A DNA stretch of 61,657 nucleotides, taken from Betaproteobacteria bacterium (GTDB lineage Bacteria; Pseudomonadota; Gammaproteobacteria; Burkholderiales; JAHFQX01). Where the stretch lies: the NCBI GenBank assembly GCA_023259135.1, contig JAHFQX010000014.1, forward strand, positions 1 to 61,657. The letters run 5' to 3'. The notes under the pieces were generated by a model. The model was not told the origin of the DNA, did not search any database, and worked only from the letters and a program-made list of their open reading frames with translations. Position 1 is the first letter of the stretch, and each line of letters opens with the position of its first letter. Of this stretch, positions 39,023 to 55,414 are shown piece by piece. Made by a program: the position numbers and the translations under genes.

Positions 39023-39037
39023 TGGCACGGGTTTTGC
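39023..39037 (+). promoter_or_regulatory. sigma-54 promoter of nasT
   Basis: TGGCACG (39023-39029), four bases, TTGC (39034-39037): the core of the sigma-54 consensus is matched, with the exact ten bases between GG and GC. Transcription should start near 39049, about 33 bases before the nasT ATG. Such promoters need an enhancer protein, NtrC for nitrogen genes. Confidence 0.8.
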
Positions 39038-39081
39038 GAAGTCCCTCAAGATATCCTTACCCCTTTCAGGCAAATTAAACC

Positions 39082-39657
39082 ATGTTACGGGTCATGCTGG
39101 TGGATGAAAGCCAGGAACGCGCCAAGTTGCTGCGAGAGTCCCTCGTCGCCAGCGGCTACGAAGTAGTGGGGGAACTGGCCGATACCTTGCGGCTCCACCA
39201 GGAAGTCTGCCGTATCAATCCCGACGTCATCATCATTGACAAGGATTCCCCCGACCGGGATACCCTGGAAAATCTATGCGTCGTCTCCCGCGACCAGCCA
39301 CGGCCCATCGTGCTGTTCACCGTCGACAGCAACCAAGAAAAAATCCGCGAGGCCGTGCGGGCCGGGGTCACGGCCTACATCGTGGGAGGACTGTCGGCCG
39401 AGCGGGTGAGGCCCATCGTCGATGTCGCCGTGGCCCGGTTCGAGGCTTATCAGGGGTTGCAAGCGCAACTCGCCGAAACCCAAGCCCGTCTTGCCGACCG
39501 CAAGGTCATCGAGCAGGCCAAGGGCATCCTCATGAAAATTCGCCAAATCCCCGAAGAAACGGCTTACCAACTGTTGCGCCGGGAAGCCATGGCCAGCAAC
39601 CGGCGGATCGGCGATCTCGCCCGGCAAATCATCAGCACCGCGAAATTGCTGGCCTGA
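39082..39657 (+). CDS. nasT: nitrate-responsive antiterminator, REC-ANTAR protein NasT
   Basis: 191 residues. The N-terminal receiver-like domain (about 1-120) reads VMLVDESQERAKLLRESL and DVIIIDKDSPDRDTLENL. After a coiled coil comes the ANTAR RNA-binding domain (about 130-190): LADRKVIEQAKGILMKIRQIPEETAYQLLRREAMASNRRIGDLARQII, with the conserved Ala-Lys-Gly and the late Ala. NasT binds paired hexaloop hairpins in the leader RNA of nitrate assimilation genes and stops termination. In the studied systems it is held inactive by NasS, a nitrate-binding NrtA relative; no nasS lies next to it here. A sigma-54 promoter precedes it and a matching leader follows it. Confidence 0.92.
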   Translation: MLRVMLVDESQERAKLLRESLVASGYEVVGELADTLRLHQEVCRINPDVIIIDKDSPDRDTLENLCVVSRDQPRPIVLFTVDSNQEKIREAVRAGVTAYIVGGLSAERVRPIVDVAVARFEAYQGLQAQLAETQARLADRKVIEQAKGILMKIRQIPEETAYQLLRREAMASNRRIGDLARQIISTAKLLA

Positions 39658-39820: not shown

Positions 39821-39837
39821 TTGGCATAGGGATTGCT
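39821..39837 (+). promoter_or_regulatory. sigma-54 promoter of the nrtABD operon
   Basis: TTGGCATAGGGATTGCT fits the consensus YTGGCAYR-N4-TTGCW at every defined base, with GG (39823-39824) and GC (39835-39836) ten bases apart. The start of transcription should be near 39848, only about eleven bases before the first ANTAR-type hairpin. Two GCACCAAAA words (39689-39697, 39720-39728), 31 bases apart, lie where NtrC enhancer half-sites would be expected, but that is weak. Confidence 0.8.
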
Positions 39838-39858
39838 TTGGCTTAAGCAGCGCAGCAG

Positions 39859-39913
39859 CCGGCCAAAGACGGTCGGGCAGTCAAGCAAGGCAAGCGGCAG
39901 GCCAACGGCGGTC
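39859..39913 (+). promoter_or_regulatory. ANTAR-target leader RNA: two hexaloop hairpins
   Basis: Hairpin 1: CCGGCC (39859-39864), loop AAAGAC, GGTCGG (39871-39876), six pairs including one G-U. Hairpin 2: GGCC (39900-39903), loop AACGGC, GGTC (39910-39913), four pairs including one G-U. Both loops have six bases with A first and G fourth, the known rule for ANTAR-protein targets. The terminator follows 20 bases later. NasT, encoded just upstream, should bind this RNA. The 23-base link between the hairpins is longer than I expect, so there is some doubt about the second one. Confidence 0.75.
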
Positions 39914-39933
39914 GGCACCAAGGGACAACGAAG

Positions 39934-39970
39934 TCCGCGCCCCGGAAATTTCCGGGGCGCGGATTTTTTT
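39934..39970 (+). terminator. leader terminator before nrtA
   Basis: A perfect 30-base palindrome (arms 39934-39948 and 39949-39963, TCCGCGCCCCGGAAA and its complement) is followed by seven T (39964-39970). It lies between the ANTAR hairpins and the nrtA ribosome site, so it must be read through for expression of nrtABD: the site of the expected NasT antitermination. Confidence 0.92.
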
Positions 39971-40010
39971 GGAAAATTTTTCGGAAGCCACCACTTACGG
40001 AGCGCACCTT

Positions 40011-41273
40011 ATGAACAAGCCGACGCACAAGTCTCGTCCCCCCCACGCCGGACGCCGGGAGATTCTGAAAGCAGGAGGAGCGGCCGCCCTGATGGCTCTG
40101 GTTCCTCCGGGAATCCGCTCTGCCGCCTGGGCGGCCGGCTCGGATGCCCCGGAAAAGAAAGAAGTGAAGATCGGATTCATTCCCCTGACCGATTGCGCTT
40201 CGGTGGTCATCGCCGCGGTCATGGGCTTCGACGAGAAATTCGGCATCAAGATCGTGCCCAGCAAGGAGGCTTCCTGGGCGGCGGTGCGAGACAAGCTGGT
40301 CAACGGCGAACTGGATGCCGCCCATGTGCTTTACGGCCTGATTTACGGCGCACAACTGGGCATCGGCGGCACCAAAAAAGACATGGCGATGCTGATGAAT
40401 CTCAACCACAATGGCCAGGCCATCACCCTTTCCAATCAGCTCCGGGACAAGGGAGCCACCGACGGGACCAAGCTCAAGGCGCTCATCGACAAGGAAAAGC
40501 GGGACTACACCTTCGCCCAGACCTTCCCCACCGGCACCCACGCCATGTGGCTCTATTACTGGCTGGCGGCTCATGGCATCCACCCCTTCAACGACGTCAA
40601 GAACATCACCATCCCTCCGCCGCAGATGGTGGCCAACATGCGGGTCGGCAACATGGACGGCTATTGCGTCGGAGAACCCTGGAACGCCCGGGCCATCCAC
40701 GACAAGGTGGGCTTCACCGCGGTCACCACCCAGGAAATCTGGAAAGACCATCCGGAAAAAGTGCTGGGTAGCACCGCCGAATTCGTCCAGAAGCACCCCA
40801 ACACCGCCCGGGCCATGATCATGGCGGTGCTGGAAGCTTCCAAGTACATCGACACCATGACCCACCGCAAGAAGGTCTCCGACATCATCGCCGACAAGGC
40901 CTATGTGAATACCACCGCCGAGGTCATCGAACAGCGGCTGTTCGGCTTGTACGACAACGGAATCGGCAAGAAGTGGCAGGACGCCAACTACATGAAGTTC
41001 CACAACGACGGGCTGGTGAACTTTCCGTTCCTGTCGGACGGCATGTGGTTCCTGACCCAGCACCGGCGCTGGGGCTTGCTCAAGGCAGATCCCGATTATC
41101 TGGCCGTGGCCAAGAAGGTGAACCGCATCGACCTCTACAAGGAGGCAGCCAGCCAAGTGAAGGTCTCGGTCCCGAAAGATCCACTGCGCAGCTCCAAGCT
41201 GCTGGACGGCGTGGTCTGGGACGGCAACAACCCCAAGGCCTATGCCAGCGGATTCAAGGTGAAAGTCGCGTGA
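40011..41273 (+). CDS. nrtA: nitrate ABC transporter, periplasmic substrate-binding protein (NrtA/NasF type)
   Basis: 420 residues from the ATG at 40011 with GGAG nine bases ahead. A TTG at 39969 in the same frame is ruled out because it lies in the terminator. The start carries a twin-arginine signal (GRREILKAGGAAALMALVPPG), so the protein is exported folded. The binding domain follows: KIGFIPLTDCASVVIAAVMGFDEKFGIKIVPSKEASWAAVRDKLVNGELDAAHVLYG, the NrtA/CmpA pattern with nitrate-contacting residues. GYCVGEPWNARAI is also typical. It captures nitrate or nitrite for NrtB/NrtD. NasS is a cytoplasmic relative; the Tat signal marks this one as the transporter protein. Confidence 0.92.
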   Translation: MNKPTHKSRPPHAGRREILKAGGAAALMALVPPGIRSAAWAAGSDAPEKKEVKIGFIPLTDCASVVIAAVMGFDEKFGIKIVPSKEASWAAVRDKLVNGELDAAHVLYGLIYGAQLGIGGTKKDMAMLMNLNHNGQAITLSNQLRDKGATDGTKLKALIDKEKRDYTFAQTFPTGTHAMWLYYWLAAHGIHPFNDVKNITIPPPQMVANMRVGNMDGYCVGEPWNARAIHDKVGFTAVTTQEIWKDHPEKVLGSTAEFVQKHPNTARAMIMAVLEASKYIDTMTHRKKVSDIIADKAYVNTTAEVIEQRLFGLYDNGIGKKWQDANYMKFHNDGLVNFPFLSDGMWFLTQHRRWGLLKADPDYLAVAKKVNRIDLYKEAASQVKVSVPKDPLRSSKLLDGVVWDGNNPKAYASGFKVKVA

Positions 41274-41310: not shown

Positions 41311-42228
41311 ATGAGCGCAGTGATTTTGTCTCACGATAAATTCCAGGAATCCCCGCCCGGCGGGGGACCTCCCCCCGCCGGGGCGGAACCGGCGGAGACT
41401 TCTTCCGCTCCTCCGTCTGCGCCCCCCGAAGCCAAGCGGCCTTCCGGCTGGAATTGGGGCGCAGGAGCGGCCGCCGTCCTCCAGGCAACGCTTCCCGCGC
41501 TGCTGGGACTGGGGCTGTTCATCGCCGTCTGGGCATTGGTGGCCCAGCAAAGCCCGAACCTGCCGGGGCCGGTCAAGACCTGGGCATCCGCGGTCGAGAT
41601 ATTCAGCGATCCGTTTTATCAGAAAGGGCCCAACGACCAGGGCATCGGCTGGAATATCTTGAGCTCCCTGCAGCGGGTCGGCATCGGCTTCGGCATGGCG
41701 GCGCTGGTCGGCATCCCGCTGGGCTTCATGATCGGGCGGTTTCGATTCTTGAGCGACATGACCGCTCCCATCATCAGCCTGCTGCGGCCGGTCTCGCCCC
41801 TGGCCTGGCTGCCCATCGGTCTATTGGTGTTCAAAGCGGCCAACCCGGCGGCCATCTGGGTCATTTTCATTTCCAGCATCTGGCCGATGATCGTCAACAC
41901 GGCCATGGGGGTGCGGCAGATTCCCGAGGACTATCTCAATGTAGCCCGGGTGCTGAAGCTGCCGGAATGGACGGTATTCACCAAGATCCTGTTCCCCGCC
42001 GTGCTGCCCTTCATGCTCACCGGAGTGCGGTTGTCCATCGGCGTGGCCTGGCTGGTGATCGTCGCCGCCGAGATGCTGACGGGGGGCGTGGGCATCGGTT
42101 TCTGGGTATGGGACGAATGGAACAATTTGAACGTCGAGCACATCATCATCGCCATCTTCGTGGTCGGCATCGTCGGCCTGCTGCTGGAGCAAGCGCTGGT
42201 GCTGCTCGCGAAGCGATTTAACTATTGA
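41311..42228 (+). CDS. nrtB: nitrate ABC transporter permease
   Basis: 305 residues. A proline-rich cytoplasmic start of about 45 residues precedes six membrane segments (first at about 57-78, ALLGLGLFIAVWALVAQ). The cytoplasmic loop that contacts the ATPase is seen in MGVRQIPEDYLNVARVLKLPEWTVFTKILFPAVLPFMLTGVRLSIGVAWLVIVAAEML, the EAA-like motif. WDEWNNLNVEHIIIAIFVVG is the standard NrtB end. The ATG at 41311 follows AAGGAGC. Confidence 0.92.
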   Translation: MSAVILSHDKFQESPPGGGPPPAGAEPAETSSAPPSAPPEAKRPSGWNWGAGAAAVLQATLPALLGLGLFIAVWALVAQQSPNLPGPVKTWASAVEIFSDPFYQKGPNDQGIGWNILSSLQRVGIGFGMAALVGIPLGFMIGRFRFLSDMTAPIISLLRPVSPLAWLPIGLLVFKAANPAAIWVIFISSIWPMIVNTAMGVRQIPEDYLNVARVLKLPEWTVFTKILFPAVLPFMLTGVRLSIGVAWLVIVAAEMLTGGVGIGFWVWDEWNNLNVEHIIIAIFVVGIVGLLLEQALVLLAKRFNY

Positions 42229-42237
42229 GGCGCCGTT

Positions 42238-43029
42238 ATGGACAAATACCTGCAACTGGAGCATCTGCACATGGCCTTCCGCACCAAGCACGGCGCGTTC
42301 ACGGCATTGCAAGACGTGAACCTGTCGGTGGCCCAAGGCGAATTCGTGTCGCTGATCGGGCATTCGGGCTGCGGCAAATCCACCCTCCTCAATCTGCTGG
42401 CGGGGCTGCTCACTCCCACCAACGGGGTATTGATCTGCGCCCAGCGGGAAATTTCCGGGCCCGGGCCGGACCGGGGGGTGGTATTCCAAAACCACTCTCT
42501 ATTGCCTTGGCTCACCTGCTTCGAGAACGTCTATTTGGCGGTGGAGCGGGTATTCGGCGGCAAGGAGCCCAAAACCCGCCTCAAGGAGCGCACCCAAGAA
42601 GCTTTGGCTTTGGTTGACCTGTCCCACGCCCAGCACAAGCGGCCCCATGAGATTTCCGGAGGGATGAAACAGCGGGTAGGCATTGCCCGAGCCTTGGCGA
42701 TGCAACCCAAGGTATTGCTCATGGACGAGCCCTTCGGCGCCTTGGATGCGCTGACTCGCGCCCATCTGCAAGACGAGCTGATGAAAATCGTGGCGGCCAC
42801 CCGCAGCACCGTGCTGATGGTGACCCACGACGTGGACGAGGCGGTGCTGCTGTCGGACCGGATCGTCATGATGACCAACGGCCCGGCGGCCACCATCGGC
42901 GACATCCTGACGGTGGATTTGCCTCGCCCCAGGGCCCGCCTAGCCTTGGCCGAAGACCGCCGCTACCATCAATTGCGGGCCGCGGTGCTGGAATTCCTGT
43001 ATCAGAAGCAGATGCGCCCGGCGGCTTAG
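42238..43029 (+). CDS. nrtD: nitrate ABC transporter ATP-binding protein (NrtD/NasD type)
   Basis: 263 residues, one ABC cassette: Walker A GHSGCGKST, Q-loop VVFQNHSLLPWLTCFENVYLAVERVFG, signature ISGGMKQRVGIARAL, Walker B VLLMDEPFGALDALTR and H-loop MVTHDVDEAVLLSDRIVMM. It has no fused binding domain, so it corresponds to NrtD (NasD in Klebsiella) rather than NrtC. It starts nine bases after nrtB and ends the operon; the next gene faces it. Confidence 0.92.
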   Translation: MDKYLQLEHLHMAFRTKHGAFTALQDVNLSVAQGEFVSLIGHSGCGKSTLLNLLAGLLTPTNGVLICAQREISGPGPDRGVVFQNHSLLPWLTCFENVYLAVERVFGGKEPKTRLKERTQEALALVDLSHAQHKRPHEISGGMKQRVGIARALAMQPKVLLMDEPFGALDALTRAHLQDELMKIVAATRSTVLMVTHDVDEAVLLSDRIVMMTNGPAATIGDILTVDLPRPRARLALAEDRRYHQLRAAVLEFLYQKQMRPAA

Positions 43030-43043
43030 CACGGGGAGCGCAA

Positions 43044-44171
43044 TCAGGGCCCCTCCGCGAAACGCCGCTGGATCTCCTCGATCCTGGCGCGGTTGGCGAT
43101 GAGGGCCGCCACGCACCGGGGGTCGAACCGGGTGCCGGAGTGCTCCCGCAGCCAGGAGAAGGCTGCGTCGTTGCTCCAGGGCTCCTTGTAGGAGCGCCGG
43201 CTGGCGAGGGCGTCGAACACGTCGGCCACCGCGGTAATCCGGGCTTCGAGGGGGATCGCGTCGCCCTTGAGCCCCTCCGGATAGCCCGAGCCGTCCACCG
43301 CTTCGTGGTGGTATTGGGCGATATTGCCCAGCATCTCCGCATAAGGCATATGCTCCAGGCCGAAATTCCGGAGCATGACTCCGATGACGTCCTGGCCTTT
43401 CAGCGTGTGCAAACGCATGGCCCGCGCCTCTTCGTCGGTCAGTTTGCCGGTCTTGAGCAACACCCGGTCCGGGATGCCGATCTTTCCCAAGTCGTGGAGC
43501 GAGGCGAACAGAAAAATATGCTCCACCCACTCGTCGTCGATATTCATGGAGCCCGCCAAGCTGCGGGCGATGAGCCGCGCATAGTTGGCGACCCGGTCGA
43601 GGTGGACGCCGGTTTCCAAATCCCGCAGATGGGCGAAGGCGGCTGCGGTGCGCACCGCCGCCGCCAGGCTGCGGGCCGCGGCCAAGTCCATCATCACCAC
43701 CTCGATGATCAGATGGGCCGCGAAATCCAATTCGCCCAGAGCCAGTTCGGTAAAGGCGTGTTTTTGGCAGGAGTCGAAGAACACCACCCCGGAAAACGCC
43801 CCGTTGACCAACATCGGCAAGGTATAGCTGGAGCCGTAGCCATGGGACAGGATGCGCCGGGTATGTTCTTGGGAACTTGCGGCGAACACATCCAGGTCGT
43901 CCACCAGCCGGGGCCGGCCGCGGGCGGCAAGCTCCCGCAGCGATGCGGCTTCGCTCAATGGCGCCTCGTAGTGGCTCAGGACACGACCGTCCCCGCTGCT
44001 GGCGAGGAAGGTCTTCAGCCAGTCGGTCTTGGGATCGTACAGCGCCACGGCGATGCGATCGACGCAGGGAAAGCGCTCCCGCACCGCCCGGTGGATCACG
44101 TCCAGTTTTTCGGAAAGCCTGGCGCGCTTCCCCAGGTCGCTCAACGAATCTTCGTGACCGAACATTTTCAT
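43044..44171 (-). CDS. GAF-HD-GYP protein, probable cyclic-di-GMP phosphodiesterase
   Basis: 375 residues. A GAF-like sensor domain (about 15-165) is followed by an HD-GYP domain (about 170-370). The metal and signature residues are present: HLDRVANYA, HDLGKIGIPD (HD at 226-227), HTLKGQDVI, HHEAVDGSGYPEGLKG (HH at 288-289 and the GYP motif intact) and ADVFDALASRRSYKE. Such proteins break down cyclic-di-GMP. The GAF domain may bind a small ligand or heme. It faces nrtD, 14 bases away, and is divergent from the DUF192 gene. No tie to nitrate is shown by sequence. Confidence 0.9.
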   Translation of the reverse strand: MKMFGHEDSLSDLGKRARLSEKLDVIHRAVRERFPCVDRIAVALYDPKTDWLKTFLASSGDGRVLSHYEAPLSEAASLRELAARGRPRLVDDLDVFAASSQEHTRRILSHGYGSSYTLPMLVNGAFSGVVFFDSCQKHAFTELALGELDFAAHLIIEVVMMDLAAARSLAAAVRTAAAFAHLRDLETGVHLDRVANYARLIARSLAGSMNIDDEWVEHIFLFASLHDLGKIGIPDRVLLKTGKLTDEEARAMRLHTLKGQDVIGVMLRNFGLEHMPYAEMLGNIAQYHHEAVDGSGYPEGLKGDAIPLEARITAVADVFDALASRRSYKEPWSNDAAFSWLREHSGTRFDPRCVAALIANRARIEEIQRRFAEGP

Positions 44172-45615: not shown

Positions 45616-47304
45616 TCATGTCACCACCAGCAAATAAAGCAAAATCAGATTGAACACCAGGGAAGCCAGCGCCAGGCCCTGCCAAGTGCGTAGCGGATCC
45701 CGGGCCGCCAAGGGGGTGCGGCCGGGAGCCGCGAGCTGCCGGTGTTCCCCATGTTCCAGGGCCAATAGGAATTCCTCGGCGGTCTCGAAGCGTAAGCGAG
45801 GGTCCCGCACCACCGCCTTCAACAAGGCATTTTCCAGCCACACCGGGATATCGGGGCGATAACGCCTGGGCGACACCGGATCGACGAAGCGGGGCCGCTG
45901 GAAGGGTTCGATCTCACCGTAGGGGTATTTGCGAGTTAGCAAGTGGTAAAGCGTCACTCCAATGGCGTACAGATCACTCTGGGGCGAGGCGGCGGCTCCA
46001 TCGAAAAGTTCCGGGGCGATAAAACTGGGAGTCCCCGGATGACCCGCCCCATGGTTATCGTTCAAGCCGCTGGCGGCCACCCCCAAATCCAGAATCCGTA
46101 GCTTGCCGTCGTCCGCCAAATGCAGGTTGGCCGGCTTGATATCCCGGTGCAGAACATTCAGCCGATGCAACGCGGCCAAGCCCTTGAGCAGCCGGATACC
46201 GATCTGCACCGCCTCGACGCAGGAAAAATGCCGGCCCCGCTGCAAATGCTGCTGCAATGTGGCACCGTCATGATAGGTCATGACGTAGTAGAGGAAATGG
46301 CGCTCTTCCCCGGTCAGCGGCATCACCTGGGGAAAATAGTGGGACCGCACCCTCTTGCCCAGCCACTCCTCGGCCAACAAGGCTTCGCAGGCTTCGGGAT
46401 CGTCATTGAGGGCCGGGTTCAGAGTCTTGAGCACCAACATCTGACCGGAAATCTTGTGCCGCGCTCGGTAGAGCAGCGTGACCCGGGATTCATGCAGCAA
46501 TTCCTGGATTTCGAAGTCATCAATCAACTGCCCAATCTTGGCGCGGGGCGGAACCGCCAAGTGCCGACCGGCCGCCAGCAAATCCCGCAACCCCTCCGCC
46601 ACCTGCCGCACCCGGACCACCACCGCGGTGGCATTGTCTCGCCCCCGGCCCGTCAGGGCTTTCTTCACCAAGGCCTCCGCCGCAAGCCGCGGGTTGTCGT
46701 AAAGCTGCAAGATTTCGTGGATGCCCGGGTCTCCCACCCCCTCCCAGACCCCGTCGGTGGCCAGTAACAGGACATCCCCCGCTTGCAGTTCCGCGTCGGC
46801 GTAATCCGGCACCAAATGCTGGTCCAGGCCCACGGCTCGTTTCAACACATGCTGCATGCCGGGTCGCTCCCACACGTGATCCTGGGTCAATCGCTCCAAG
46901 CGGCCGTTACGCAGCAAATACACTCGGCTATCGCCGACATGCACCAGCCAATAACGGTTGCCCCGCAGCACCACCGCGCTCAAGGTGGTGGCCATGCCGG
47001 CGTAGTCTCGGTGCAATGCACTCTGGGCCAACAACCAGCGATTGATGGCGGAAAGCACTCGCTCCAAGGCTTGGGGAATTTCCCAGGTATCGGGAGTGGC
47101 ATAGTAGTCGGACAGCAGCCCTTGAATAGTCGCTTCCGCCGCTTCCCGCCCGCCACTGTGACCGCTGACGCCATCGGCCACCGCCAGCAGCGCTCCCTTG
47201 ACGCTGAGTGGCTCGCCCTCCGGCAGGGCAATCCCCCAGCTATCCTCGTTGCGCTCCCGGCGCCCGACCTCGGTGGCGTGCCCGGCCTCGACCTGTAATG
47301 GCAT
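45616..47304 (-). CDS. PP2C phosphatase fused to Ser/Thr protein kinase, membrane-anchored
   Basis: 562 residues. Residues 1-235 form a PP2C phosphatase with the metal-binding pieces RRERNEDSWG, VADGVSGHSGG, HVGDSRVYLL, LLATDGVWEGV and GRGRDNATAVVV. Residues 265-520 form a Hanks-type kinase: Lys294 in LVLKTLN, catalytic HRDIKPANLHL (386-396), DLG in place of DFG (406-408) and the APE motif in FIAPELF. The glycine loop is degenerate (ELLHESRVTLLYRAR). The last 20 residues form one membrane helix (LALASLVFNLILLYLLVV). It is the last gene of the nasA operon. Opposing activities in one chain suggest a reversible switch, target unknown; NarK or regulators are plausible. Confidence 0.93.
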   Translation of the reverse strand: MPLQVEAGHATEVGRRERNEDSWGIALPEGEPLSVKGALLAVADGVSGHSGGREAAEATIQGLLSDYYATPDTWEIPQALERVLSAINRWLLAQSALHRDYAGMATTLSAVVLRGNRYWLVHVGDSRVYLLRNGRLERLTQDHVWERPGMQHVLKRAVGLDQHLVPDYADAELQAGDVLLLATDGVWEGVGDPGIHEILQLYDNPRLAAEALVKKALTGRGRDNATAVVVRVRQVAEGLRDLLAAGRHLAVPPRAKIGQLIDDFEIQELLHESRVTLLYRARHKISGQMLVLKTLNPALNDDPEACEALLAEEWLGKRVRSHYFPQVMPLTGEERHFLYYVMTYHDGATLQQHLQRGRHFSCVEAVQIGIRLLKGLAALHRLNVLHRDIKPANLHLADDGKLRILDLGVAASGLNDNHGAGHPGTPSFIAPELFDGAAASPQSDLYAIGVTLYHLLTRKYPYGEIEPFQRPRFVDPVSPRRYRPDIPVWLENALLKAVVRDPRLRFETAEEFLLALEHGEHRQLAAPGRTPLAARDPLRTWQGLALASLVFNLILLYLLVVT

Positions 47305-48981: not shown

Positions 48982-51411
48982 TTAAATCTCGATGGTTTCG
49001 AACTCGCGGGAATCCGACGCTTGGCGGCTCCGCTCCCGCCAAGGATCTTTCTCCCCCTGCAAGGCGTACAGCAACCGCTGATACAGCGCCCGACGACCCT
49101 CGGCGTCGTCCGCCACCCGCTTTTTCACATAGTCCAACCCCACCCGCTGGATAAAGTGGACGGTACGGTCCAGATAGCGCGCTTCCTCGCGGTAAAGCTG
49201 CACGAAGGCCCCGGCGTATTCGAGGACTTCTTCCGGGGTCTTCACCTTCACCAGGAACTGGGCCACTTCGGTCTTGATTCCCCCATTGCCGCCGACATAG
49301 ATCTCCCAGCCGGAATCCACTCCGATGACGCCCACATCCTTGATCCCCGACTCGGCGCAGTTGCGGGGACAGCCGGATACCGCCATCTTGACCTTGTGGG
49401 GGGCGTACATTTTCCAGAAAGCCTGCTCCAGATCGATGCCCATCCGGGTGGAGTCCTGCACCCCAAAGCGGCACCACTCGCTGCCTACGCAAGTCTTCAC
49501 GGTGCGCAAGGCCTTCGCGTAAGCATGGCCGGAAGGCATGTCCAGATCCGCCCACACCTTGGGCAGGTCTTCCTTCTGGACCCCCAGCAGGTCGATGCGC
49601 TGGCCGCCGGTCACCTTGATGGTGGGGATCCGGTATTTGTCCACCACATCGGCAATGCGCCGCAAATCGCCGGCGCTGGTCACTCCGCCGAACATGCGGG
49701 GCACCACCGAAAAAGTCCCATCCTTCTGGATGTTGGCATGGGCCCGCTCGTTGATGAAACGGGACTGGGGATCGTCCTGGGCTTCGTGGGGCCAGGCGCA
49801 GAGCAGGTAATAATTCAGGGCCGGGCGGCAACTGGCGCAACCGTTGGGATTACCCCAAGACAGAAACTTCATCGTCGCCGGAATCGACAGTAGCCGCTGT
49901 TCCTTGATGGCCTTGCGCACTTCCTCGTGGGTCAGATCGGTGCAGCCGCACACCGGCTTATCGGCGGAAGCCTGCGGAGTGTAGGCGCCGCCCACGGTGC
50001 TGGCCAAGATCTGCTCCACCAAGCCGGTGCAGGAACCACAGGAACTGGAAGCCTTGGTGTGCTTGCGGACATCCTCCAGGGTAAACAACCCTTTTTCCTT
50101 GATGGCCGTGACGATCGTGCCCTTGCACACGCCGTTGCAGCCACATACCTCCATGTCGTCGGGCATGTTGGCCGCCTTGCTCTGCCCCAAATGGCCGGCG
50201 TTACCCAGATGATTCTGGCCGAACATCAGATGATCCCGAATCTCTCCGATAGCTTGCCCGTCCCGCATCAATTGGAAATACCATGCGCCGTCGGCGGTAT
50301 CGCCGTACATCACGCTGCCCACGATCTGATTATTCTCGATCACCAGCTTCTTGTAGACGCCGCCCACCGCGTCGTGCAGCACGATCTCCTCGCTCTGTTC
50401 GTTGCCTGTGAAATTCCCGGCGGAAAACAGGTCGATCCCGGTCACCTTGAGCTTGGTGGAAGTCACCGAACCCTGGTAGCGCCCGAAACCCAGCAGTGCC
50501 AGGTGGTTGGCGCACACCTTGGCCATCTCGAACAAAGGGGCCACCAGCCCATAAGCCGTGCCACGATGGGAAGCGCATTCGCCGACCGCATAAATCCGCG
50601 GATCGTAGGTCTGCAAGGTGTCGCTGACCACGATCCCCCGGTTGCACAGCAAGCCGCAGGATTCGGCCAATGCGGTGTTGGGGCGGATGCCCACCGCCAT
50701 CACCACCAATTCGGCGGGAATCTCGTCGCCGTCGGCGAAGCGCACCTTGGCGACGCGGCCGTTCTCCCCCACCAATTCCTGGGTTTGCTTGGGCAGCAGG
50801 AATTTGAGTCCGCGCCGCTCCAGGGAACGCTGCAACATTCTGGCGGCGGCACGGTCCAACTGCCGCTCCATCAGCCATTCGGCAAGATGCACCACGGTCA
50901 CGTCCATGCCTCGCTGCGCCAAGCCGTTGGCGGCCTCCAGCCCGAGCAGACCGCCGCCGATCACCACGGCATGGCGGTGATGGCCGGCGGCCTCGATCAT
51001 GCGGTTGGTGTCGTGGATATCCCGGTAGCTAACCACCCCTTCCAGATCCTTGCCGGGAATGGGCAGAATCACCGGATTGGATCCCGTCGCCAGCAACAGC
51101 CGGTCATAGCTCTCGCAAGTTCCGTCCTCGGCGTAGGCCTTGCGTAAACGGCGGTCCAGCTTAGTGACCTGCTTGCCGAGATGCAGGCGGATGCCGTTCT
51201 CACGGTACCAATCCACATCGTTGAGCATGATGTCCTGGAGCGTCATTTCTCCTGCCAGCACCGGAGACAACAAGATGCGGTTATAGTTGGCATGGGGCTC
51301 CGCGCCGAATACCGTGATCTCGTAAAGATCGGGAGCGATCTTTAGCAGTTCCTCCAAGGTCCGCACCCCGGCCATCCCGTTCCCCACCATCACCAGCTTC
51401 ATCGGTTTCAT
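48982..51411 (-). CDS. nirB: nitrite reductase (NADH) large subunit
   Basis: 809 residues from the ATG at 51411 (GGGAG six bases ahead; an ATG one codon up is too close). Order: FAD/NAD(P)H reductase domain (about 1-300, KLVMVGNGMAGVRTLEEL and VVIGGGLLGLEAANGLAQRGMDVTVVH), two BFD-like [2Fe-2S] segments (CGCNGVCKGTIV...SSSCGSC and CGCTDLTHEEV...GCASC), then the siroheme/[4Fe-4S] core with TCVGSEWCRFG and SGCPRNCAES giving the four cluster Cys. It makes the six-electron reduction of nitrite to ammonium. Confidence 0.97.
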   Translation of the reverse strand: MKPMKLVMVGNGMAGVRTLEELLKIAPDLYEITVFGAEPHANYNRILLSPVLAGEMTLQDIMLNDVDWYRENGIRLHLGKQVTKLDRRLRKAYAEDGTCESYDRLLLATGSNPVILPIPGKDLEGVVSYRDIHDTNRMIEAAGHHRHAVVIGGGLLGLEAANGLAQRGMDVTVVHLAEWLMERQLDRAAARMLQRSLERRGLKFLLPKQTQELVGENGRVAKVRFADGDEIPAELVVMAVGIRPNTALAESCGLLCNRGIVVSDTLQTYDPRIYAVGECASHRGTAYGLVAPLFEMAKVCANHLALLGFGRYQGSVTSTKLKVTGIDLFSAGNFTGNEQSEEIVLHDAVGGVYKKLVIENNQIVGSVMYGDTADGAWYFQLMRDGQAIGEIRDHLMFGQNHLGNAGHLGQSKAANMPDDMEVCGCNGVCKGTIVTAIKEKGLFTLEDVRKHTKASSSCGSCTGLVEQILASTVGGAYTPQASADKPVCGCTDLTHEEVRKAIKEQRLLSIPATMKFLSWGNPNGCASCRPALNYYLLCAWPHEAQDDPQSRFINERAHANIQKDGTFSVVPRMFGGVTSAGDLRRIADVVDKYRIPTIKVTGGQRIDLLGVQKEDLPKVWADLDMPSGHAYAKALRTVKTCVGSEWCRFGVQDSTRMGIDLEQAFWKMYAPHKVKMAVSGCPRNCAESGIKDVGVIGVDSGWEIYVGGNGGIKTEVAQFLVKVKTPEEVLEYAGAFVQLYREEARYLDRTVHFIQRVGLDYVKKRVADDAEGRRALYQRLLYALQGEKDPWRERSRQASDSREFETIEI

Positions 51412-52484: not shown

Positions 52485-55202
52485 CTAGGCCGCCCGTTGC
52501 CTCGCCCCATGGGCGGCGGCCAGGCGCCTGAGCTCGGGGACGCAGGAACCGCATTCCGTGCCGCAGCGTAATTTTTGTTGCAGCTCGGCCGGGGTCGAGC
52601 CTTCCGCGAGCACCGCCAGAATCTCCCGCTCCGAAACATCCAGGCAATTGCAAACGATGCGCCCGCGCGAGACCTGGCCGGCGGGCGGGGCGCTCACCGG
52701 AGCCAGGACCCAGCGCCGCACCGGCTCGGCCTTGCCGCCTTCGGCCAGCAATTCCTTGAGCCAATCCCGGGCGGCGACCTCCCCGGTGAGCCGGACTCCG
52801 GAAAGCCTGCCATTTTCTATCAGCACCCGCTTGGTGATACCCCGCTTCCCGTCCGCGTAGCTCATGACCCGGGCATCGTCGTCCAGCTCCAGGATCCGAT
52901 CCAACTCAGCCAGCAGGGTCTCGTCCCGCGGTTCGGCGCAAGCGGCCCGCAGCACCAGAATTTCCCGGTCCCGGCCGTAAAGGCCGCAGGCGGCATAATC
53001 AAAACGCTCCAGCAACGGCTGCACTCTGGGCAATCGATCCAGCGCATCGCCGCAGCGCATCGCCACCAACTGCCAAGGCAAGCGCATCCGCTCCACCGCC
53101 ACCGCCGCGTGCTTGAGTTCCGGCTGCTTGGAAATCGGATCGAAAGCTGGCATGGTCAGCGCGTTGGTTCCGGAACCCTTCATGAACTGGCTGCCCCAAT
53201 GCATGGGCAAGAACACCTGCCCGGAGCGCATTTCGGCGGATTTCCGCGCCCGCACCACCACCTCGCCCCGGCGGCTCCTGACCCGCACCAGGTCGCTGTC
53301 CGCCAAGCCCCGCATGGCCATGTCGTCGGAATTCATGGACAGCACCGGCTCTTCCGCATGGTTGAACAGCCGCGCCACCGTGCCGGTACGGCTCATCCCA
53401 TGCCACTGATCCCGCAACCGGCCGGTGTTAAGACGAAAGGGATAGCGGGCGTCGGTCATTTCTTCCGGCCGGCGGTAGCGCGCCACATGAAACCGAGCCC
53501 GGCCGTCGGCAGTCGGAAACACGCCGTCCTCGTAAAGACGCTCGCGGCCCGTCGCGGCCCCTTCCGGGAACGGCCACTGCTGAGGGCCGCGCTGCTCCAA
53601 CAAAGCATAGGACAAGCCGGTGATATCCAAATCCTGCCCCCGGGTGGTCTCCCGGTGCTCGTTGAAAACCTCCTCCGCGGATGGGTAGGGAAACAGCCGC
53701 GGCGCATCGGCGCGGTTTAACCGGGCGCCGAGCCGCAAGGCGAAATCGGCGGCGATGCGCCAATCCTCACGGGCTTCGCCGGGGGGCGGGACGGCGGCCC
53801 GCACCCGGCTGATGCGCCGCTCGGAATTGGTGACGCTGCCTTCCTTCTCCCCCCAACTGGCGGCGGGCAGCAGAATATCCGCATACGCCGTGGTATCGGT
53901 GTGCCGGTAGGCTTCCTGCACCACCACCAGATCCGCCGCCGCCAGGGCTTCCCGCACCCGGTCGGCTTGGGGCATGGACTGGGCCGGATTGGTGCAGGCG
54001 ATCCAAATCGCCTTGATCTCCCCGCTGCGCACCGCTTCGAACATTTCCACGGCGCTCTTGCCCGGCCGGGACGGAACTTCCGGCACTCCCCACAGCCGCG
54101 CCACTTCCTCCCGGTGCCGGGGATTGGCCAGATCCCGATGGGCCGACAACAGGTTCGCCATGCCCCCCACCTCTCGTCCCCCCATGGCATTGGGCTGCCC
54201 GGTCAGGGAAAACGGTCCGGCCCCCGGCTTGCCGATCTGGCCCGTCGCCAAATGCAGATTGATGAGCGCGGCGTTGTTGTCGGTCCCGTGGCTGGATTGG
54301 TTCAAGCCCTGGCAGTAAAGCGACAAGGTCGCCTCGGAATCGGCGAATTCCCGGGCGGCTCTCACGATGTCCTCCGCCGGCACGCCGCAAATCGCCGCGG
54401 CGTATCCCGGCGTGTACTCCCGCACCGCTTCCCGCACCGCTTCGAAACCCTCGGTGTGCCGCTCGACAAAAACCTTGTCCCACAATCCCTCCCACAGGAT
54501 GACGTGGAGCATGGCGTTATAGAGGGCGACATCGGTGCCGGGCAGGATGGGCAAAAACAGATCGGCGGCCTCGGCGGTGTCGGTGCGGCGGGGGTCCACC
54601 ACGATGATGCGCAGTTCCGGGCACCGCGCCTTGGCATCCTCGATGCGGCGAAACACGATGGGGTGGGCGTAGGCGGTATTGGAGCCGGAGATGAACAAGG
54701 TCCGGGCGTGATCGATGTCGGCGTAGCAAGCCGGCGGCGCATCGGCCCCCAGAGTGGCTTTGTAGCCCGCTACCGCCGAGGACATGCAGAGCCGGGAATT
54801 GGTGTCCACGTTATTGCTGCCCACCAGCCCCTTGACCAGTTTGTTGAAGACATAGTAGTCCTCGGTCAGCAACTGGCCGGAAATGTAGAAGCCCACCGCG
54901 TCGGGGCCATGCCGGCGGATGATGTCGGCAAAGCGGTCGGCGGCGCTGTCCAGGGCCTCATCCCAGGAAACCCGCAGCCGCACCGCTGCGCGGCTGCGGC
55001 GCAGTTCCGGATAAAAAGCCCGCGCTTCGGGCCGGGCCGTCAGGTGCAGAGTGGAGCCCTTGGTGCACAAGCGCCCAAAGTTGGCGGGATGTTCCGGATC
55101 GCCTCGTATTCCGATAATCCGGTCGCCTTCGACAGCAACGACGACCCCGCAGCCGACACCGCAGTAACAACAGGTGGATTGCACTTCTCGGGACAGGCCC
55201 AC
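52485..55202 (-). CDS. nasA: assimilatory nitrate reductase catalytic subunit
   Basis: 905 residues. The N-terminal [4Fe-4S] motif is Cys11-x2-Cys14-x3-Cys18...Cys46 (CCYCGVGCGV, GRLCTKG). Molybdopterin-guanine-dinucleotide domains follow, with NVDTNSRLCMSSAVAGYKATLG, where Cys is the Mo ligand as in cytoplasmic and periplasmic nitrate reductases. The C-terminal 90 residues hold a BFD-like [2Fe-2S] domain (VCNCLDVSEREI and LRCGTECGSCVPEL), as in Klebsiella NasA, but no separate NasB-type reductase lies in the window. There is no Tat signal, so it is cytoplasmic. The start is a GTG at 55202 with GGAG five bases ahead. It heads the six-gene operon and has its own sigma-54 promoter. Confidence 0.95.
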   Translation of the reverse strand: MGLSREVQSTCCYCGVGCGVVVAVEGDRIIGIRGDPEHPANFGRLCTKGSTLHLTARPEARAFYPELRRSRAAVRLRVSWDEALDSAADRFADIIRRHGPDAVGFYISGQLLTEDYYVFNKLVKGLVGSNNVDTNSRLCMSSAVAGYKATLGADAPPACYADIDHARTLFISGSNTAYAHPIVFRRIEDAKARCPELRIIVVDPRRTDTAEAADLFLPILPGTDVALYNAMLHVILWEGLWDKVFVERHTEGFEAVREAVREYTPGYAAAICGVPAEDIVRAAREFADSEATLSLYCQGLNQSSHGTDNNAALINLHLATGQIGKPGAGPFSLTGQPNAMGGREVGGMANLLSAHRDLANPRHREEVARLWGVPEVPSRPGKSAVEMFEAVRSGEIKAIWIACTNPAQSMPQADRVREALAAADLVVVQEAYRHTDTTAYADILLPAASWGEKEGSVTNSERRISRVRAAVPPPGEAREDWRIAADFALRLGARLNRADAPRLFPYPSAEEVFNEHRETTRGQDLDITGLSYALLEQRGPQQWPFPEGAATGRERLYEDGVFPTADGRARFHVARYRRPEEMTDARYPFRLNTGRLRDQWHGMSRTGTVARLFNHAEEPVLSMNSDDMAMRGLADSDLVRVRSRRGEVVVRARKSAEMRSGQVFLPMHWGSQFMKGSGTNALTMPAFDPISKQPELKHAAVAVERMRLPWQLVAMRCGDALDRLPRVQPLLERFDYAACGLYGRDREILVLRAACAEPRDETLLAELDRILELDDDARVMSYADGKRGITKRVLIENGRLSGVRLTGEVAARDWLKELLAEGGKAEPVRRWVLAPVSAPPAGQVSRGRIVCNCLDVSEREILAVLAEGSTPAELQQKLRCGTECGSCVPELRRLAAAHGARQRAA

Positions 55203-55259: not shown

Positions 55260-55414
55260 ACGGCCTCCCGCTTATGTTTTCTCTTTAGAATCAGGGTGAA
55301 GAGGTTCGACCGCCCCAGCCGGCGCCGGTTAATGGTGCGGCCCAGGGCCGACGCGCTCCAGGATGGAGCGGGCCGGCTCCGCCAATAGCCGGGTCCCTCT
55401 CCCGCGCCGCCGAT

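Follow-up and report, generated by a model that had tools for sequence, protein, structure and literature searches.

In the eut leaders of Enterococcus faecalis, 5–12 nt separate the paired hairpins, according to the available part of PMC3369931. The available text of a second study (PMC8934654) gives the first hairpin of such a leader the name "recruitment" hairpin, uses "antitermination" hairpin for the second, which overlaps the terminator, and reports that lengthening the eutP link by 20 nt abolished antitermination by EutV. For nitrate assimilation, NasS is described in the accessible sections of PMC3795266 as a cytoplasmic, signal-less relative of NrtA that retains NasT as long as both nitrate and nitrite are absent. 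NalA is presented in the available part of a review (PMC12830290) as a sigma-54- and NtrC-driven nirBD leader under NasT control, and NasT-type hairpins before narK have already been predicted in Bradyrhizobium, as stated in the text at hand of PMC6759348.

The nasT–nrtA locus and its promoters

We analysed the entire 61,657-nt stretch of contig JAHFQX010000014.1 (the window), with all coordinates counted from its first base. On the forward strand, nasT (39082–39657) encodes an ANTAR response regulator of 191 aa (Pfam ANTAR, 68.2 bits; Response_reg, 40.4 bits) and is followed by nrtA (40011–41273), which encodes a nitrate-binding protein of 420 aa with a Tat-type signal (RREIL; Pfam NMT1_2, 358 bits), by the nrtB permease gene (41311–42228; TIGR01183, 253.6 bits, cut-off 209.05) and by the nrtC/D ATPase gene (42238–43029; TIGR01184, 343.5 bits, cut-off 291.8). 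The reverse strand carries an HD-GYP-type (HD_5) gene with a weak GAF match (43044–44171), convergent to nrtC, as well as nirB (49030–51396) and a molybdopterin oxidoreductase gene that we take as nitrate reductase (52485–55202). Inside the nitrate cluster, also on the reverse strand, lies a PP2C-type protein phosphatase fused to a protein kinase (45616–47304), and the same fusion was found again beside narK, nirB or nrtA in relatives (L121–L125, L020 and L026).

The initial annotation had described the interval between nasT and nrtA as an ANTAR-type antitermination leader with a sigma-54 promoter, two hairpins, a terminator and the nrtA ribosome site. The promoter is present as TGGCATAGGGATTGCT at 39822–39837 on the forward strand, with a predicted start near 39847, and the ribosome site is read from the sequence as ACGGAG at 39997–40002 on the same strand, ahead of the nrtA ATG at 40011. 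Consensus scanning gave a candidate sigma-54-like site before nasT (TGGCACGGGTTTTGCG, 39023–39038, forward strand) and another candidate at 55260–55245, preceding the nitrate reductase/nirB unit. Three units of the cluster (nasT, nrtA and nitrate reductase) have sigma-54-like sites, with a NasT leader on nrtA only, and the three units appear to be nitrogen-controlled.

The third hairpin overlaps the terminator

ANTAR target RNAs carry two hairpins with a hexaloop whose first base is A and whose fourth is G (A1/G4), and a hexaloop scan of the nrtA leader revealed three, all on the forward strand. The two that had been annotated, with loops AAAGAC and AACGGC, are both there, and a third one at 39923–39936 had been overlooked. 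H1 (ccggcc-AAAGAC-ggtcgg, 39859–39876) is the strongest of the three, with 6 bp and −10.5 kcal/mol. H2 (ggcc-AACGGC-ggtc) has its core at 39900–39913, with the loop at 39904–39909 and the stem at 39900–39903/39910–39913, and extends to 39897–39916 across one A·G mismatch; H3 (ggac-AACGAA-gtcc) occupies 39923–39936. The three A1/G4 hairpins with a stem of at least 4 bp compare with 0.15 expected per dinucleotide shuffle of the leader, and at least three arose in one of 2000 shuffles. The 23-base link that the initial annotation had found odd is the gap between H1 and H2. Since the working pair is H2 and H3 and not H1 and H2, this anomaly disappears: H2 and H3 are linked by 9 nt between their 4-bp cores, or by 6 nt with H2 extended, within the range of about 5–12 nt of ANTAR dual-hexaloop RNAs. 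H2–H3 thus reads as a standard ANTAR pair and H1 as an additional hairpin. By analogy, H2 and H3 would match the recruitment and antitermination roles, respectively, and H1 would be an additional recruitment site.

The intrinsic terminator (39930–39970, forward strand; −34.0 kcal/mol) consists of a 17-bp stem (39930–39946/39951–39967) and seven T (39964–39970), and the 30-base palindrome annotated there is indeed perfect (39934–39963). Its stem begins at G4 of the H3 loop, so that bases 39930–39936, which are the last three loop bases and the 3′ arm of H3, are also the first seven of the terminator stem. Because these bases are shared, H3 and the terminator are mutually exclusive, and H3 has the place on the terminator that the second hairpin of an ANTAR target RNA takes. 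The exclusion was also seen in computed folds of the growing transcript from 39847, in which H3 had a probability of 0.99 up to base 39960, and once 39967 was made H3 stood at 0.0002 and the terminator at 0.9998. As H3 persists until 39960, there would be an interval for NasT to trap it, as judged from equilibrium folds. The exclusion between H3 and the terminator gives what an attenuator needs; H1 and H2 alone would not. The segment 39840–39990 folds better than 200 of 200 shuffles (z = −4.6), and the strongest part is the terminator.

Some features of the hairpins count against an attenuator. H2 has a short stem (4 bp, and 2 more past the mismatch), the H1 5′ arm pairs with the H2 3′ arm in full-length folds with a probability of 0.53–0.72, and the H3 loop AACGAA was found nowhere else among the loops tallied. 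The pairing between H1 and H2 was absent, by eye, from the other three-hairpin leaders described below and was treated as incidental.

Conservation of the leader in the order

We surveyed 45 nrtA loci, of which 41 (window counted) have an upstream sigma-54 site scoring at least 19.9. Leader statistics were computed on these 41, and four loci (L011, L017, L052 and L057) were left out for a weak sigma-54 score. Five loci whose proteins are 33–36% identical to the window NrtA (L060–L064) were excluded from the leader counts; they represent a second NrtA-like family with a CGRH-type N-terminus (by eye), a Tat motif and nrtBC-like genes of its own, and the leader scan recognised no A1/G4 leader in them. 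The 41 leaders hold 73 A1/G4 hexaloop hairpins, against 5.6 in shuffles. Such a hairpin is carried by 36 of the 41, with every other loop class at 11 or fewer, and it overlaps the terminator in 31 under a strict folding criterion, which the other ten failed (L014 and L051 among these passed a looser version). All 33 upstream hairpins tallied close with C-G, a feature that was not part of the search, although the tally skipped loops with pairable first and last bases and thereby hid some U-G closures. The architecture that recurs in the order before nrtA is a sigma-54 site followed by A1/G4 hairpins, the last one on the terminator.

Covariation in both hairpins, as in an ANTAR target RNA, was found in an alignment of 19 of the 41 leaders, which we selected because an A1/G4 pair could be recognised in them with no more than 16 nt between its hairpins, so that its paired-cell percentages are biased toward structure. 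With this bias, 95.8% of the cells in the ten H2 and H3 base pairs were paired, compared with 20–47% in slid controls, and seven of the ten pairs showed changes on both sides, two of them in H3. H3 was paired in 100% of cells, with double changes from GGAC/GTCC to CAAC/GTTG or AGAC/GTCT, and the H2 stems closed with C-G in 17/19 and with U-G in 2/19. A covariance search, proposed in the initial annotation as a check, gave a divided answer: the Rfam models narK and P11 stayed below their thresholds, and a leave-one-out model built from 18 relatives without the window ranked H2–H3 top in the window with 25.5 bits (E = 7.7e-6), followed by H1 (16.5 bits, E = 0.0034) and a third match at E = 0.21. 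A model that includes the window (R1) matched 50 of 150 genomes searched, the window's own genome counted, at E ≤ 0.01. In that own genome its sole convincing match was the nrtA leader; five more matches appeared at E ≤ 5, one of which is H1, and the next two (E = 0.027 and 0.19) were rejected because, by eye, they lie inside polyprenyl synthase-like and FecR-like genes. The nitrate reductase/nirB unit gave no convincing match to the NasT-leader model despite its sigma-54 site, so NasT control here seems limited to uptake.

Nine of the 41 leaders, in six families by family codes, have at least two A1/G4 hairpins before the terminator-overlapping one. These are the window, L013, L014, L015, L018, L033, L038, L049 and L051, with the overlap in L014 and L051 resting on the looser test and with three hairpins preceding the overlapping one in L038. 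The last two loops are 18–25 nt apart in 9/9, and the preceding distance is 33–43 nt in 8/9. Two further leaders, L021 and L029, were left out of this set, one for a third candidate inside the terminator and the other for a hairpin 114 nt away. Leaders counted with one upstream hairpin have gaps of 3–96 nt. That the gaps between the last two hairpins are long in many relatives (up to 96–97 nt), beyond the tolerance of EutV, counts against the attenuator. Since EutV does not tolerate an added 20 nt, yet long gaps are found in relatives, NasT leaders may obey a spacing rule different from that of EutV.

Loss of the leader was compared with loss of the regulator in two genomes. G144 keeps the sigma-54 promoter and has no ANTAR protein, no A1/G4 hairpins and no overlapping terminator, and G120 has an ANTAR protein yet no such leader before nrtA, which again counts against the attenuator. 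In G144, then, leader and NasT are both missing, which is not the case in G120.

NasT and its predicted RNA-contact residues

An ANTAR search of the whole genome returned four matches, of which nasT alone lies over the Pfam cut-off. The only such protein is therefore encoded next to the leader, in agreement with the annotation of nasT as its regulator, and has the receiver and ANTAR domains of the NasT in NasS–NasT systems. Most of this protein can be aligned with EutV. The EutV RNA contacts K143, Y164 and M172, as given in the available text of PMC8934654, are kept as K141, Y162 and M170, and K147 corresponds to Q145, with the chain numbering offset by two in our count. A Gly of the window NasT occupies the position of the EutV receiver lysine, which makes phosphorylation control less likely. 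The searches above yielded no convincing NasT target in this genome besides the nrtA leader.

Probable transcription attenuation and alternative explanations

We consider the 5′ leader of nrtABC very likely to be a NasT-type transcription attenuator, with a probability of roughly 0.88. The leader parts, the exclusion between H3 and the terminator, and the conservation with compensatory change are established by sequence and comparison; NasT binding and antitermination we infer from work on EutV, NasR and NasT. The earlier reading as an ANTAR/NasT antitermination leader remains the best one, since the same architecture recurs before nrtA in the order, with the hairpin that acts as the switch corrected to H3. 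Under nitrogen shortage, the sigma-54 promoter, presumably activated by NtrC, would start a transcript near 39847, and by default the hairpin 39930–39967 with its seven T would halt transcription before nrtA. Free NasT would bind the A1/G4 hexaloops as each emerges, recruited by H2 and offered a further landing site by H1, and would then keep H3 closed. Because H3 occupies the bases of the terminator 5′ stem, the terminator could not be completed while H3 is held, and nrtABC would be transcribed.

Two other explanations would remove H3 from this role or the leader from regulation. The initial annotation treated H1 and H2 as the functional ANTAR pair, in which case H3 would be a chance by-product of the terminator 5′ arm. 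H1 is indeed the strongest hairpin and the second window match of the leave-one-out model, but the terminator shares no bases with H1 or H2, H3 is retained in all 19 aligned leaders with double changes, and the 20–23 nt between H1 and H2 exceed the 5–12 nt seen in eut leaders of E. faecalis, which makes this explanation highly improbable. We give just as little credence to a plain constitutive terminator of the nasT transcript preceded by non-regulatory hairpins. Located after nasT, such a terminator would block read-through, but with the sigma-54 promoter upstream of it nrtA would be blocked too; moreover, conservation extends to the number of hairpins, the loop rule and the compensatory changes, and G144, which has no ANTAR protein, lacks both the hairpins and the overlapping terminator.

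NrtA relatives and nitrate sensing

The genome that holds the window is estimated to be 98.99% complete and comprises 86 contigs. An alphaproteobacterial NasS query against it matched NrtA alone at E ≤ 1e-20, an NrtA query matched no second copy at E ≤ 1e-60, and Pfam NMT1_2 matched just NrtA and one weak site, which by eye neighbours an ABC ATPase gene of the phosphonate type and was not taken as NasS. A separate cytoplasmic NasS was thus not found in this 98.99%-complete genome, in which an unassembled stretch could still hide one. In the loci surveyed, nasT immediately precedes nrtA in the same orientation in 32/45, and the gaps of 166–788 nt leave no room for nasS between them; in L052, nasT follows nrtA. 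More distant Tat-type NrtA proteins (L132–L136, 38–42% identical) likewise have nasT before them and nrtBC after them. In Phyllobacterium the order is nasT, a signal-less NrtA-family protein, a gap, nrtA and ntrB.

Signal-less proteins of the NrtA clade, 46–69% identical to that of the window, were found at nine loci (L110, L121–L124, L126, L127, L129 and L131). In each of the nine the distance to nasT is about 410 nt at most, and no nrtB or nrtC was seen within the examined stretches of 3.6–11 kb. Tat-type NrtA loci (at least 60% identical) have nrtB or nrtC alongside in 40/42, the exceptions being L026 and L125; no match to NrtB turned up anywhere in the genome of L125 (G081), so that an NrtA of the exported type can also occur without its permease. 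For seven of the nine signal-less loci, the genomes (G033, G055, G060, G098, G104, G118 and G127) have no other NrtA at E ≤ 1e-60, and in the six of these searched for NrtB (all but G055) none passes the family cut-off. In most relatives, nasT is thus accompanied by one kind of protein, an exported NrtA or a signal-less relative of it. The two kinds occur together in two genomes, G111 and G003, and G090 may be a third, with a possible NasS on a second contig. G003 shows the canonical order of nasT, NasS-like protein, leader and nrtABC, and its proteins have 30–36% identity to the window NrtA or alphaproteobacterial NasS. In G131 (L138), nasT comes with a leader and no NrtA lies within 5 kb.

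In a quick NrtA tree of 61 rows, which does not include L131–L138 and carries a long-branch warning, the eight signal-less proteins have two origins: seven of them group together (SH-aLRT 98), and L121 falls inside the exported NrtA group (91). The seven-member clade probably represents Burkholderia and Pseudomonas NasS. The L121 protein (in G033) is an NrtA 69% identical to that of the window, signal-less and encoded just upstream of nasT, and its genome gave no nrtB match. This is an apparent conversion of a transport protein to a regulator partner, in which the signal would have been lost separately. Taken together, these loci are circumstantially consistent with NrtA-clade proteins holding a NasT-partner role apart from transport.

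These observations are the basis for a reading in which, in this lineage, the NrtA of nrtABC itself has replaced NasS. NrtA with its Tat signal would fold in the cytoplasm ahead of export, nitrate-free NrtA would keep NasT inactive, nitrate would release NasT, and H1 would raise the local NasT supply; as a joint claim we regard this as rather unlikely. If true, nrtABC would sense its own substrate via an exported component, and an exported transport protein would serve as a cytoplasmic signal before leaving the cell. A different account, equally compatible with the attenuator, has NasT not gated by nitrate: the NasT level, set by its own sigma-54 promoter, would determine read-through, and the attenuator would report nitrogen shortage alone. 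The genome in which no NasS was found, the sigma-54-like site upstream of nasT and the deregulation of Paracoccus nas genes on nasS loss, as given in the available sections of PMC3795266, all point this way, and a NasT controlled by amount alone would also fit the window. What it leaves unexplained is why nasT in relatives lies next to a nitrate-binding protein from a single clade, whether or not that protein is exported, and we hold this account only tentatively. Also compatible with the attenuator would be gating of NasT by c-di-GMP, which the HD-GYP protein encoded next to nrtC would lower. c-di-GMP weakens the binding of Pseudomonas putida NasT to NalA, according to the available part of the review PMC12830290, and the HD_5 gene at 43044–44171 is convergent to nrtC; this gene is on the strand opposite to nrtC, however, and we think a c-di-GMP gate improbable. 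As NasT and its RNA target persist without a detected NasS, the nitrate sensor here becomes a testable question.

Comparison with known systems

The leader appears to be a switch of a known type, here with an extra hairpin and with the usual nitrate-sensing partner not detected. The Enterococcus eutP leader bound by EutV resembles it in its two A1/G4 hexaloop hairpins with a short link and the second hairpin on the terminator, as described in the available parts of PMC3369931 and PMC8934654. The input there is ethanolamine and phosphorylation, and the window leader adds a third hairpin. NasT-type leaders in the order vary in the number of recruitment hairpins and have gaps that the EutV rule would forbid. 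For Paracoccus denitrificans, binding of NasT to the nasA leader in a gel shift is reported in the accessible sections of PMC3795266, and the text at hand of PMC5424462 reports that mutants in hairpin HI of the leader no longer grow on nitrate. The same text speaks against our model in one respect, as mutation of HII left activity with nitrate nearly unaffected. P. denitrificans has NasS, whereas the genome of the window yielded none.

An Rfam scan of the leader returned no family at its own cut-off; matches to isrJ and Leu_leader were set aside, as their coordinates place them largely on the terminator. The leader scored 19.9 bits with narK (RF03032; cut-off 43.2) and 11.9 bits with P11 (RF00625; cut-off 70), which we take to be NalA, and with both scores under the cut-off it belongs to neither family by the Rfam rule. 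Among 16 loci of relatives compared with Rfam at E ≤ 0.5, six matched narK, six matched P11, ten matched at least one and six matched neither, and the best scores were 38.1 bits for narK (cut-off 43.2) and 36.3 bits for P11 (cut-off 70). The window leader thus looks like a sub-threshold relative of both. In our reading of the alignments, both consensus sequences treat an apparent sigma-54 promoter as part of the RNA, and the P11 consensus contains GGACAAAGGCGUCC. The narK 3′ tail is drawn unpaired, yet it can form CGAC-AAAGAC-GUCG, a hairpin with an A1/G4 hexaloop. Both narK RNA and P11 look like NasT leaders. A search of the literature on narK RNA with ANTAR or Rfam found no paper drawing that link in the text available from its sources; given the Bradyrhizobium prediction before narK, the link may already be known elsewhere.

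This comparison would place narK RNA and P11 among NasT leaders. The narK RNA, in our reading, shares with the window a sigma-54 site and a hairpin with the loop AACGGC followed by an A1/G4 hairpin, and in the window's own genome its best match is the window leader; the alignment differs in being restricted to the H2 and H3 part (positions 31–70). The Pseudomonas NalA/P11 leader likewise has a sigma-54 promoter and an A1/G4 hairpin, followed by GGAC-AAAGGC-GTCC, which overlaps the terminator. It stands before nirBD, whereas the window leader stands before nrtABC and has three hairpins, with the loop AACGAA in H3.
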